The notes under the pieces are model-generated. The model worked only from the letters and a program-made list of their open reading frames with translations. It was not told the origin of the DNA and did no database searches. This document shows positions 54,823-62,966 of a DNA stretch of 64,000 nt, piece after piece (position 1 is the first letter of the stretch; every line of letters starts with the position of its first letter). Origin of the DNA: Apophysomyces variabilis (Eukaryota; Mucoromycota; Mucoromycetes; Mucorales; Mucoraceae); contig MZZL01000408.1 of assembly GCA_002749535.1 (NCBI GenBank), positions 418,693-482,692 of the forward strand. Direction: 5' to 3'. Made by a program: the position numbers and the translations under genes.

Positions 54823-57800
54823 ATGTCTGACAACCCGTTCGGTTGGCAGTTGCCGACATCTATGTCAGGTAAAAAGATAGAAGCGTCAAAGATGGGAAGT
54901 TGAAACGCGTCAATTTGGTGCTGACCTTCCGCTGCTTTTTATGACAAAGCTAATCAAGGCAATCTATCTTTTACCCAAGATCCATGGTCAGCAGCTTATT
55001 ACTATTCTCAGGTACTGATACAAAAGGACCCTTTACTTACTGCATTGTTTAAATTAAAAAAACACTGACGCTCGACGTTTCAAAATCAGACCTACTACGA
55101 CCCAGCATCAGGTCAATATTATTATGCTCCTGCCTATTATGCGCCTCCCCCACCGCCTCCTCCTCCTCCTCCTCCTCCACCATTAGAATCGCCCGTAACC
55201 GAGCAACAGCACCCGCCGTCAGGGACACCAGTGTCGTCCTCACCGTCTTCACCGACAACGGCGACACGGCCAGCATCTGGTGGTACAAGATCCGACCTAC
55301 CCGAAAATGACAACGCCGATGCAATGAATAAACCGAGAAAGTTTGGTCAATTCATGGGAAAATTGCTGCTCCAAAGCAATACAACTAAGAACAAAAACGC
55401 ATTACCGAAACCCGCTAGAAAAGAGTTGATTCAACCAAGTTTGGAGAGTTCTTACCCCGATTATTTCCGTGTGCAGAAACCAAGATCTCTCGAGAGGTTG
55501 AAAATGACATTCAAATTCGCGTCACGAGAGGGAAAATGTGAAGTGGAAAAAAGGGAGGAAGAAAAAGAGCATATTGACAGTTCCTTGGTCATCAATGAAA
55601 CTTGTAAGGACATCAAGTATCGGACTACTCAGGGTAGAAGAACCCGCTGGGATGTCAAACCGAAGAGTGATGAGGATATTGGCCACGTTAAACCTATAGA
55701 ATCTATCGATGTGGAAAATTACAGCCCAGTAGACAAAAGTTCGCCTGATAATAAAAGTAAAGAGGAAAAAGGCACACACGATGAAGAGCGAGATATTGAT
55801 GATGCTGCCTCGGATGATTCACTTCAGTCTGACGACGATGTTCTCGGCCCATGGATTGAGCTTGGCCTGCTCAACCCGGAAAGCAGCACGTCTATACCAT
55901 CCGACAAAGAATTCAAAAGCAAAGAGAAAGAAAACGAAGAGGTCAGTTGGTGCAATGCTTGCGACGCATTGCATGCTAATGTGGATCGAGAACCGTTTGA
56001 AACGATTCAGCAATGTTCATCTTGTGCCCTTGTATGGAAGAAACAAGCGGAGGATCTTCTTAAGAATATCAGCGGTCGCTACCACTGTGAACAACAAAAG
56101 CAAAGACGAAAGACAGTTAAGAAAAAGAAGAAAGAGCTCAAGAAATTACCCAGAGCAGCAAATAACGTCCAGCCCCCGACTAAATCCAGAAATAAGATCC
56201 CACCTTCCAAATCTCGTAAGGTGTATAGAGCACAATCAACAGAACAGAAGAGAGTAGAGCCTACCAAAACAGAAAAAGAAGAGGAACAAGCGTTTTACAC
56301 TACCGGTGCATTCATGACTCGCAAGACAGCTAAACAACTGGCCGATCCTGAGTTCGGCTTCCGCCCGAATCCCTACGGCTTCAAGCATCGCCAAAAGGTC
56401 GAAGTTTTGAATATTAATGGACATTGGTACCATGGCGTATTGACGATGATGCGCGGCGGAAAAGTCAAAGTGAGTTATACAGATTGGGATGATCAAGAAG
56501 AATGGATCATTATGGGAAGCCGCCGATTGAGAATCATGTCCGATGAAGAAAATGATACGCTTCCTGCAGATATAGGTTCAAACAAAGGAGGTAAGATCGA
56601 TTTGTGCTTCTCCACCTATCGTCTAATATTTATGAGTGCCTTATAGAAGACGACGAAGACGACAATGAAAAGATCTTGGAGGAGGAGGAGGAAGAAGAAG
56701 ATGAAGATGTGGAGGATCCATTATGGAAATCCATCCTCACTAAACCATCATCGAAAGGAGCAGATGACTATGTTAGTTCCACACTAGACACAGACCCAAC
56801 ACAGATATTTAACGACAACGAAGTCTTCATGACAAGACGCATGGCAAGAGAGCTGACAGACGAATATGGGTTTAAACCGAATTCGTTTGGCTACCGTCAC
56901 AATCGCGCTGTGGCAGTGGCAGCCCGTACACTCAAAGACCCATACATTGGTTATCTGCGAGAAATGCGAGGAAATAAACTACGCGTATGGTACCCGAATT
57001 TGAGACAGTCAGAATGGTTGGTTGCTGGTAGTCGTCGATTGCGGGTGTTGACAGAGGAAGAAGAGACTGCATTACGAAATAAAATCAATATTTCTATCGA
57101 AGACGAGGAACATAAAGAACAAGAACAAGAGAAGCGGGCTCCTGCAAAGGAGAAACAGAAAGAACCGGAAAGACAACCATCAGAAGTACCTGAACCGCCA
57201 AAGACAGAACCAAAGAAGCAGGCTCAAAGGCGTGGCAGACCTCGTAAACAAGCGGATTCCCACCCAAGCCCTGAGGAAACTAAGGAGGAGAAAACCAAGG
57301 AAACCGATCCTATTGGCACCGAGTTTTTGACCACTGGTGCGTTTGCAACGCGTCGTGCTATGCGTCAACTTAGTGACGAACACGGATTTGTTCCGAATCC
57401 ATACGGTTATACGTACAATCAGTCTGTGGAAGTTCTAAATACACGTTCTGGTAAAAACAAATTTTGGGAACGTGCACGATTGGTAGCCATGCGACCAGGA
57501 CAAGTATGCATACGTTACGAGGGCTGGAGCGAAGCCTATGATGAATGGATGATGGTGGGCAGCCGTCGTATCAGACCCATAGAACAAGACGATTCGAGAA
57601 CGACAGCAACGACAGAAAGACCATCATCTTTGACAGAAACACCAGCCAGTGTCAAAGGAACAGTCAGAAATGCTCTCTTGATAACCGAAGCCAACCCAGA
57701 ATTGGCAGACGCACAAAAGAAGAAAAGGCAAAGGGTTGTTCTAGGACCGGAGGATTACCAGAAATTAGGGCTACTAGTAAGCCTGGAAGAGGATCAGGTG

Positions 57801-60800: not shown

Positions 60801-62966
60801 CGAAGGTAAAGAAAAGAGAATAGATATTTTATGACGAAAAAGGAAGACTTCGTCACTCATACGGTTGTTAGATGTTGCGGTGTGGATATTAATCCGGTAA
60901 CGTTGGAAACAGGGCGTCATGGCCACGGGAAAGGAAAATATAAGCGACGCGATGGCTAAATTCGTCACGCGTCTAGGCTGCGGTTGCACTTTCCCAACGT
61001 AATTGTTGCTTTGAGATCCCTCCCGGGTTAACTTCGGCGGAGTATCGGCCGATCATTGCCCAGGCTGATTCGCGACAACTTTCAGGCGCGTTATTCGGAG
61101 ATGAATCTTTCCACCATATCTTATCCCATCCACCTTACAAAGATTGTGTCGCCTATTCGACTCATTTGGAAGGTGATTTATCCAGGTAAAAGAACAAATC
61201 TAATATGCACAGTAATTTCTACGGGATGGCTCTGACAAAGACACGAAAAATATTTGATCAGATTTACCAATATCACTGATTTCAAGGATGAGTATAGTAA
61301 GGTTGTCCAAGAAAGTTGGAGGTAAAATTAGGAAAACGGAAATCGGGTATCTCATGTTATGCGTTAAAAACTTTGCCATAGACTGTTAAAGATGGGTAGA
61401 CGACTCACACTTGGTATTGGTGATAATCGTGAACATTGCTTCTATATCCCTGTTGGATTCCATTTGTTACGTCTCTACATTGATAACGGCTTTGAACTAG
61501 AAGAATTGGTAAGAACAGCCCTTTTGTCTTCTCAGGTGTAACTAATACAAAATATTCAGATTATCAAGCGTCAACGGTATTGTTCAGCATTCGGACTCGG
61601 CACGTACCTTTGTGTCCAGTTTAATTTTTTGGTCTTCACGCACGAGTTTATTGCCACGTTTCGCAAGATCCCTCTGGAATGCATTGACCGAATGGTTTCA
61701 CATGAAAATACCGGTAATGTCCTAAAGAAAGCGCATGACCTAAGGGCTGAAAAAGACTGACTGTCAAAAAACCAGATTCCGCTTGTCATGATAACGTTCG
61801 TGTAACCCATGTCCGCAAAGGCATTCCCTCCTCAGCCATTGCAAGGAAGAGTGTCGTCATGGGAACAGTTTGGGTTTTCAAGCCAACGGAGAAACTAAGT
61901 TTTGCTCAACTATGTATATCACGTATGGTTGAGCGGTTTGGAAAAGATGAGAGCAATTGGGAGCAGGTTCATCTGAACTTCATGTTGGCTGAGGTAAATG
62001 ATTCAAACGAAAAAAAAGATGACCAAAAAATTATATGATTTGTAATTTTATTTGCTTCTCGCAAAGGATCTGCAACAATTACCAGATTCGGTTTATCCCG
62101 CGCAGGACACGCGACGTAGGTTTTTTTCCTTTACTTGTTTTTTCGTTGTGAGATTAGGACGGTAAAACTGACTCTTATAGGGGCAGCATCCGAAGATGCA
62201 GCCGTGGAAGAAGATTCACCAGATGCCAATCCGTTATCGGAGTACGAGCAGCAACGGTTGAAGCGCATCGAAGAAAACAACCGCACCCTCTTAAAATTGG
62301 TAAGAAAGAAAAGCAAAGCACAAACGGGGCTCAGCCGCAGATCAGAACTTCTTTTGTTATGATCCTCTCCGAAGCGACCGTTTTGACGTGCAGATCAAAA
62401 CCAGAAAAAGAGGCTGACAGAAAGATAACGTGTTCATTCTTTCCTTTATGTCCATTCTATTTTTGTTATACCTATAGGGCTTAATATCCGAGTTGAGTGA
62501 GGAATCGGATGACTTGATCCATCATGAAATGATGATGAATAAGCCACCTCTTGTGGATGCCCCTTTGGTTCTCATGGTTATCGGTCACCCAGAGTTTCTG
62601 TTGCCACGGCAGATAAACCTTTACCGGCAAACGGTTGTACAGATTGCTACAGAGGCCACAAAGAAACTTGCACCGCAAGGCATGTTGATTATCGGAACTA
62701 AGGATGTAAGGGATAATTGTGGCAAACTTTGGCCGATGTCGATGCTTGTTCTTGAGGATATCGAACGGGCGGTTGATCCGACGGTTCTAAAACTCAAGGA
62801 AATGGTGGTTGCTGTTCCGGATGGCTATTCTAAAGATCGAAAACGTAAGGTATCTGTTGCCAATGAAAGAGAAGAAGAAGAGGAAGGAGAGGAGGAAATT
62901 GTAGAGATCGTGGATGAACATCTTCCTATTGTCCATGCGATTTATTTGGTATTTCAGTTGATATGA
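54823..62966 (+). CDS. Tudor-ZZ-PHD-GATA-DNA methyltransferase fusion
   Basis: Predicted chromatin-linked DNA methyltransferase, about 2,177 residues in 23 exons that keep frame throughout (54823-54868, 54950-55011, 55090-56590, 56647-58506, 58587-58713, 58772-59270, 59335-59494, 59564-59682, then 15 smaller ones to 62478-62966). Domains: N-terminal YYDPASGQYYY and polyproline; four Tudor/chromo-barrel-like repeats (about 437-525, 597-680, 764-850, 1014-1095; consensus GFxPNxYGY...VGSRRLR); ZZ finger (about 1160-1215); extended PHD (about 1293-1415; KVCAFC...CHVCKEKG...FHLPCA); second ZZ (about 1422-1470); GATA-type finger (about 1528-1553; CCYCGTQDAEHWRKG). The C-terminal domain has SAM motif X (DYHGTWLPQTVRRAILKYT), motif I (SNFLGRGTDAIECFLLQRR) with GVDINPAAVALSQRN, motif IV (LSHPPYKD), then GRRLTLGIGDNRE and VFTHEFIATFRK, as in bacterial N6/N4 DNA methylases. 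Target base unknown; reader specificity inferred. Confidence 0.92.

Follow-up and report, generated by a model that had tools for sequence, protein, structure and literature searches.

In a 64,000-nt stretch of Apophysomyces variabilis DNA (contig MZZL01000408.1; hereafter the window) we found a 23-exon gene that joins an array of predicted chromatin-reading domains to a methyltransferase core of the bacterial N6_N4_Mtase family. The gene lies on the plus strand at positions 54823-62966 and has an open frame of 6534 nt, which codes for 2177 amino acids (aa) and a stop codon. On balance, we favor the reading that the product is a putative nuclear, chromatin-targeted DNA amino-methyltransferase (adenine-N6 or cytosine-N4) that arose from a prokaryotic methylase of the restriction-modification type. 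The coordinates of all features are collected in Table 1.

The motifs of the methyltransferase core run in linear order (X-I-II-III-IV). N6_N4_Mtase (PF01555) is the sole Pfam family above cut-off in the core (E 9.9e-10, 39.2 bits vs a cut-off of 26.7). PF01555 also matches all ten fungal cores scanned at E 0.1 or better; in homolog P0033 the score of 25.8 bits falls slightly under the cut-off. Weaker Pfam matches among the ten cores are to Methyltransf_11 (8/10), TRM5-TYW2 (5/10) and UPF0020 (1/10, at 0.085). Neither PF02384 (MetB type) nor MT-A70 (PF05063) is among the Pfam families listed for the protein or for the ten cores. The family set consists of 121 proteins (120 listed homologs and this protein), and the core alignment holds 114 of them. 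Seven were excluded for coverage, which could conceal a small number of damaged copies or gene models. SHPPYK and GIGDNR are invariant in the 114 aligned cores and motif I is kept in 109, so the catalytic site appears to be under strong selection. Motif IV of amino-methyltransferases is [DNS]PP[YFW] in the textbook form. The first residue here is H (HPPY), unlike the textbook set, but the 33 prokaryotic loci read all share this H; among them are L084-L087 and L103, whose genomes were chosen via the first set.

A tblastn search of a plasmid collection identified a related gene of Fusobacterium vincentii (34% identity over 88%, E 6e-37), with the next match at 9e-5. Genes for a Dam methylase, a DpnII endonuclease and a nuclease of the Mrr type precede it. 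At least 7991 proteins are related to its product, some of them named TRM11 family. The bacterial relative matches N6_N4_Mtase with 93.9 bits, and UPF0020 comes second with 32.1 bits. Among the best 80 of 505 loci of the bacterial relative P0219, which are close kin by selection, Dam is present in 74 and DpnII in 69 within up to 5 kb. At one locus (L015) the genes for Dam, DpnII and the PF01555 protein are consecutive, as confirmed by Pfam, and at another (L011) a MutH-like nuclease takes the place of DpnII. The fungal profile was also run on genomes drawn evenly from two phyla. With E 1e-15 as the weakest match accepted, it hit 22 of 249 genomes in the bacterial phylum (that of L040) and 16 of 120 in the archaeal one (that of L054). 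Part of the matching loci was fetched; Dam or DpnII lies in flanks of up to 1.5 kb on either side in 15 of the 19 new bacterial loci (two of these, L100 and L101, are identical) and in two of the nine new archaeal loci. Judged by their neighboring genes, most of the nearest relatives found in the bacterial draw are methylases of restriction-modification systems with Dam or DpnII next to them, and this company argues for a DNA substrate. The assignment of the core to a bacterial-type N6/N4 family, made in the initial annotation, agrees with both the profile matches and the restriction-modification operons of the bacterial relatives. Fungal-profile scans of genome-contig and viral-contig collections found no relative, the chosen patterns looking fungus-specific, and phage matches were weak (best E 1e-3). 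In the tree that holds the fungal clade and prokaryotic rows, long branches meet, and it does not tell which branch is sister to the fungi. The branch that joins the fungal clade to four weaker prokaryotic rows (L107, L113, L115 and L116) carries a value of 86, unstarred.

The continuous reading frame proposed in the initial annotation held up. All 22 introns (51-178 nt) have GT-AG ends. Exon 12 is a 28-nt mini-exon whose position is fixed by homologs such as P0001 (Apophysomyces, 86% identity), and with it set at 60538-60565 the remaining splice model is canonical and the frame stays open. Two other placements were rejected: 60500-60565 broke the frame, and 60500-60557 kept it open through a poor donor, but the encoded segment was wrong. 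The Pfam scan of the reader region and the homolog search were run on a provisional protein in which a brief segment ahead of motif I was wrong; pieces one and two of the scanned protein are free of this segment, and the core was rescanned with the corrected sequence. The start codon is uncertain by 13 codons, since a second in-frame ATG is found at 54862 and the listed P0001 starts at the corresponding site. The gene model was built on genomic sequence and homologs. A wrong join of two adjacent genes (one for a reader protein and one for a methyltransferase) is extremely improbable, given the single frame, the canonical introns and the single-protein annotation of this fusion in Apophysomyces, Radiomyces, Rhizophagus, Spizellomyces and others. 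A break near 59.9-60.1 kb, which had been named beforehand as the mark of two genes, is contradicted by homologs annotated as single proteins in many genera.

Ahead of the core lie four barrel repeats (T1 to T4), two ZZ-like fingers, an extended PHD and a GATA-like finger. Agenet (1.5e-7), MBT (1.4e-6) and zf-HC5HC2H (2.7e-10) each scored above the Pfam cut-off. Compared pairwise, the six pairs of barrel repeats score 74-197 vs best scores of 41-52 across 200 shuffles each. A hidden Markov model (HMM) made from the family's own repeats counted four repeats in 61 of the 121 proteins, three in 33, two in 23 and one in 4. The aromatic positions of T1 and T3 are kept in nearly all aligned rows (tryptophan in 103, 98 and 108 of 109 rows for T1 and in 101, 97 and 104 of 105 for T3), and those of T2 and T4 are less kept. 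The profile matches over cut-off, together with aromatic cage positions in most rows of T1 and T3, are those of Tudor/MBT/Agenet (Royal) readers, and T1 and T3 are likely, as a prediction, to read methyl-lysine. The array and the coordinates given in the initial annotation are supported: the barrel region (by Agenet and MBT) and the extended PHD score over Pfam cut-offs, and the ZZ and GATA fingers score below them and have conserved ligands. These finger assignments are the weak points of the array, as they rest on Cys/His ligands conserved in homologs. The GATA match is better in homolog P0033 (2.2e-5), yet still sub-threshold.

The core is followed by a conserved linker domain and a C-terminal domain without motif I. 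The C-terminal domain has lost PPY and retains H and DxR, with the H and the R present in 111 of 111 rows. No Pfam family was assigned to it in the Pfam scan. An AlphaFold2 (AF2) model of exon 23 has a pLDDT of 82.6, its top Foldseek match is the rotifer enzyme N4CMT (2.5e-4), and the solved N4CMT structures 8s9m-8s9o turn up among the matches. Probably, this domain represents half of a methyltransferase fold, the second one in the protein, and is degenerate.

The homolog search gave 152 matches at E 1e-3 or better. Of the 120 listed, P0001 is the closest, its 86% identity applying to the compared region. The listed homologs come from Mucoromycota (Mucorales), Glomeromycota, Mortierellomycota, Zoopagomycota, Calcarisporiella and Chytridiomycota, and the fusion is annotated in them as one protein; taxa were assigned from protein names, with P0014, P0056 and P0084 outside the assignment. 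The search for taxonomic spread that the initial annotation had suggested thus found the fusion to be widespread over several early-diverging phyla. No name of an ascomycete, basidiomycete, animal or plant occurs among the 120 of 152 homologs listed, from which a wider absence does not follow because the other 32 matches lie outside the list and the search is word-based. A further search added 64 matches, which are partial fungal proteins and environmental relatives. Six environmental relatives (P0123, P0129, P0134, P0143, P0152 and P0156) branch outside the named fungi, several of them on long branches, and perhaps come from undescribed eukaryote lineages. In its own genome (assembly of 38.7 Mb in 126 contigs) the core matches this gene alone, in at least six pieces. 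A PF01555 profile search of the same genome gave no match, which is not evidence of absence because introns interrupt the domain. Other DNA methylase matches in this genome are to MT-A70 (contigs C71, C95 and C75), to MetB-like PF02384 (C64 and C95) and to C5 DNA methylases (C59, C64 and C79).

The reader domains are chromatin modules and are fused to the core in one protein over several phyla, which we count in favor of a chromatin-targeted DNA methyltransferase. We infer nuclear location, histone binding, the DNA substrate, the target base and the biological role; the domain content would likewise suggest that histone state directs DNA methylation. In the proposed mechanism, early-diverging fungi would have converted a prokaryotic restriction-modification methylase into a chromatin protein. 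The barrels, the extended PHD and the ZZ-like fingers may dock the protein on nucleosomes that bear certain histone marks, and the GATA-like finger and basic linkers may hold DNA. The SHPPYK core would then move a methyl group from AdoMet to the amino groups of nearby bases. The C-terminal half-fold, proposed to be inactive, presumably helps to hold DNA, by analogy with the inactive partner in Mta1/Mta9. If this is true, histone marks are coupled directly to DNA amino-methylation in a single chain that is conserved through much of fungal evolution, and the protein would be a missing writer in a lineage with much-studied methylomes. Homolog P0035 is a named gene in the genetically tractable Mucor lusitanicus.

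The principle of a histone reader joined to a DNA amino-methyltransferase is already known. N4CMT of bdelloid rotifers is a bacterial amino-methyltransferase captured by a eukaryote, a case of 'histone-read-DNA-write' (PMC8885841). Like it, the fungal protein is a PF01555 protein of bacterial type fused to predicted readers of histone marks. N4CMT is permuted (IV before I), carries one C-terminal chromodomain and is found in bdelloids (PMC8885841), whereas the fungal protein has linear order, HPPY, a large N-terminal array of barrels, PHD and ZZ-like fingers, and a C-terminal half-domain, and is found in early-diverging fungi. MetB is also a restriction-type bacterial methyltransferase domesticated in early-diverging fungi; in it a target recognition domain accompanies PF02384, and the enzyme writes asymmetric N6-methyladenine (6mA) (PMC11258239), in contrast to PF01555 with chromatin readers here. 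The possible pairing of an active and an inactive methyltransferase resembles Mta1/Mta9 of the MT-A70 type (PMC12695648; PMC11258239), and AMT2/5 of the MT-A70 family, in the AMT1 pathway, carries ZZ fingers (PMC12695648). The fungal protein belongs to a different family, as MT-A70 is PF05063. The closest prokaryotic relatives found are the second methylases of Dam-DpnII operons, which share the linear order and have the motif THPPY; they are about 230-250 aa long and have no reader domains, and the Fusobacterium percentage given above refers to the fungal core. DpnA, the second methylase of the system in pneumococcal DpnII strains, is a single-stranded DNA methylase (PMC3573125). The alignment of the bacterial relative with the PDB entry named DpnA (5hek) is confined to the part around motif I, as expected if DpnA is permuted. 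We take DpnA to be a separate branch from the bacterial relative. A review from 2026 on DNA methylation in fungi names Mta1/Mta9 and MetB as fungal 6mA writers, and its available passages are silent on this protein (PMC13297926). No account of it is among the titles and abstracts listed in the literature searches; an earlier mention would most likely be found in a 2016 survey of eukaryotic adenine methyltransferases by Iyer and colleagues. More tentatively, and with less than even confidence, we propose that the fungal protein is a third DNA amino-methylation system beside Mta1 and MetB. The second methylase of a GATC restriction-modification system would have been captured, combined in one chain with histone readers and a degenerate second methyltransferase half, and maintained in lineages from chytrids to Mucorales as a DNA writer directed by histones, possibly of N4-methylcytosine (4mC).

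Several observations weigh against a DNA methyltransferase. The best structural matches of the predicted catalytic fold are the tRNA methyltransferases Trm11, TrmN and Trm14, and most of the archaeal loci found with the fungal profile have neither Dam nor DpnII in flanks of up to 1.5 kb. In addition, deletion of metB (PF02384) in Mucor lowers 6mA by 70-75%, a drop that is discussed in terms of asymmetric 6mA being lost, and symmetric 6mA is absent from the mta1 and p1 mutants (PMC11258239). The structural matches would suit an RNA methyltransferase, whose target might for example be small nuclear RNA or RNA associated with chromatin, and whose readers would bring it to transcribed chromatin. 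The TRM11 family names on some bacterial relatives and the second rank of UPF0020 (32.1 vs 93.9 bits) point the same way. Enzymes of the Trm11/Trm14/TrmN type combine a THUMP domain with a UPF0020 methyltransferase. No THUMP domain is listed in the Pfam scan of this protein or of the bacterial relative, UPF0020 appears weakly in one fungal core against N6_N4_Mtase in all ten, and the bacterial relatives sit in DNA restriction operons; we regard an RNA substrate as unlikely.

The protein could also be a chromatin scaffold of little or no catalytic activity, a reader that keeps the methyltransferase fold to bind cofactor or DNA. This would fit the C-terminal half without PPY and motif I and the assignment of known Mucor 6mA to other enzymes (PMC11258239), but the core motifs are nearly invariant from chytrids to Mucorales, which a scaffold does not need, and we consider it quite unlikely. 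A methyltransferase of histones or other chromatin proteins would make use of the same reader domains, and low-score PrmC-annotated and PrmC-profile matches occur in the wider fold class. The family profile and the operon context indicate DNA, and this alternative is highly improbable. The Pfam scan did not place the core in an RNA or protein methyltransferase family, an outcome that the initial annotation had named as refuting its own reading: only PF01555 is over cut-off.

For the DNA amino-methyltransferase that we favor, the indications on the target base diverge. The initial annotation had linked the gene to the abundant 6mA of early-diverging fungi. This link is weaker than implied, as Mucor 6mA is assigned to other enzymes; the Mucor mutants named in the passages (metA, metB, metC, mta1, p1 and dmt1) do not include this gene (PMC11258239). 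With 6mA mostly assigned to MetB, Mta1 and P1, little is left, which favors 4mC, rare or staged 6mA, or RNA. The bacterial kin act beside adenine systems, which favors 6mA. To our knowledge, 4mC is not established in fungi.

Table 1. Features of the gene, with positions in the window and residues of the 2177-aa protein
Feature	Residues	Position	Strand	Evidence
Whole gene	2177 aa	54823..62966	+	Spliced in silico; all junctions GT-AG, no stop; exon 12 from homologs
Exons 1-12		54823-54868, 54950-55011, 55090-56590, 56647-58506, 58587-58713, 58772-59270, 59335-59494, 59564-59682, 59741-59798, 59850-59927, 59985-60434, 60538-60565	+	Splice model
Exons 13-23		60636-60694, 60769-60805, 60872-60896, 60977-61185, 61262-61321, 61382-61508, 61560-61713, 61776-61993, 62067-62115, 62181-62299, 62478-62966	+	Splice model
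Barrel repeat T1, Agenet/Tudor-like	438-523	56293..56550	+	Agenet 1.5e-7; repeat HMM 4.5e-37; aromatic positions W-Y-W-W
Barrel repeat T2	592-676	56811..57065	+	Repeat HMM 1.4e-25; degenerate aromatic set in this protein, with Y and L in place of two W
Barrel repeat T3, MBT-like	762-852	57321..57593	+	MBT 1.4e-6; repeat HMM 1.9e-34; full aromatic set
Barrel repeat T4	1009-1092	58062..58313	+	Repeat HMM 2.2e-32; last aromatic is H
ZZ-like finger 1 (exons 5-6)	1161-1219	58598..58832	+	119/121 proteins; ligands conserved; not over Pfam cut-off
Extended PHD, zf-HC5HC2H (exons 6-7)	1291-1417	59046..59490	+	2.7e-10, over cut-off; 121/121 proteins
ZZ-like finger 2 (exons 8-9)	1420-1477	59566..59797	+	ZZ_ADA2 0.0054, below cut-off; 115/121 proteins
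GATA-like finger	1525-1562	60047..60160	+	GATA 0.041, below cut-off; 115/121 proteins
Methyltransferase core (exons 11-19)	1616-1874	60320..61676	+	PF01555 9.9e-10; 120/121 proteins; AF2 model of relative P0121
Motif I, NFLGRGTD		60679-60776, split by intron	+	109/114 aligned rows
Catalytic motif IV, SHPPYK		61124..61141	+	114/114 aligned rows
Conserved linker domain after core	1891-1956	61787..61984	+	117/121 proteins
C-terminal half methyltransferase-like domain	2012-2177	62288..62963	+	AF2, Foldseek, conserved H/R; 117/121 proteins

Near the N-terminus, ahead of a polyproline run, the stretch YYDPASGQYY (window positions 55093-55122) is found, which we take to be an OCRE-like octamer. Among the 121 proteins its pattern matches only this protein and P0001, perhaps because the exon is absent from many gene models. 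An N-terminal four-cysteine stretch was dropped as a family feature, as it is seen in only three of the 121 proteins. Some homolog gene models contain unrelated domains (RabGAP-TBC in P0036; PF02656 in P0073 and P0116), probably from wrong joins with neighbor genes in annotation. Within the window, GC content has an AT-rich dip at 44001-46000 (0.295, the minimum among 32 bins).

The finding also draws attention to the methylase of the bacterial Dam-DpnII operons; no description of this HPPY methylase was met in the literature passages. The third gene of the operons looks unlike the permuted DpnA. The record that carries the Fusobacterium relative (L001, NZ_CP084075.1) is labelled a plasmid, yet its 2.1 Mb is chromosome size. 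Operons of Dam, DpnII (in L011 a MutH-like nuclease) and a small linear-order HPPY methyltransferase were noted in the set of L004-L083, L001, L015 and L011; they are frequent among the fetched Clostridia loci, and one such operon is also found in an archaeal metagenome-assembled genome (L054).

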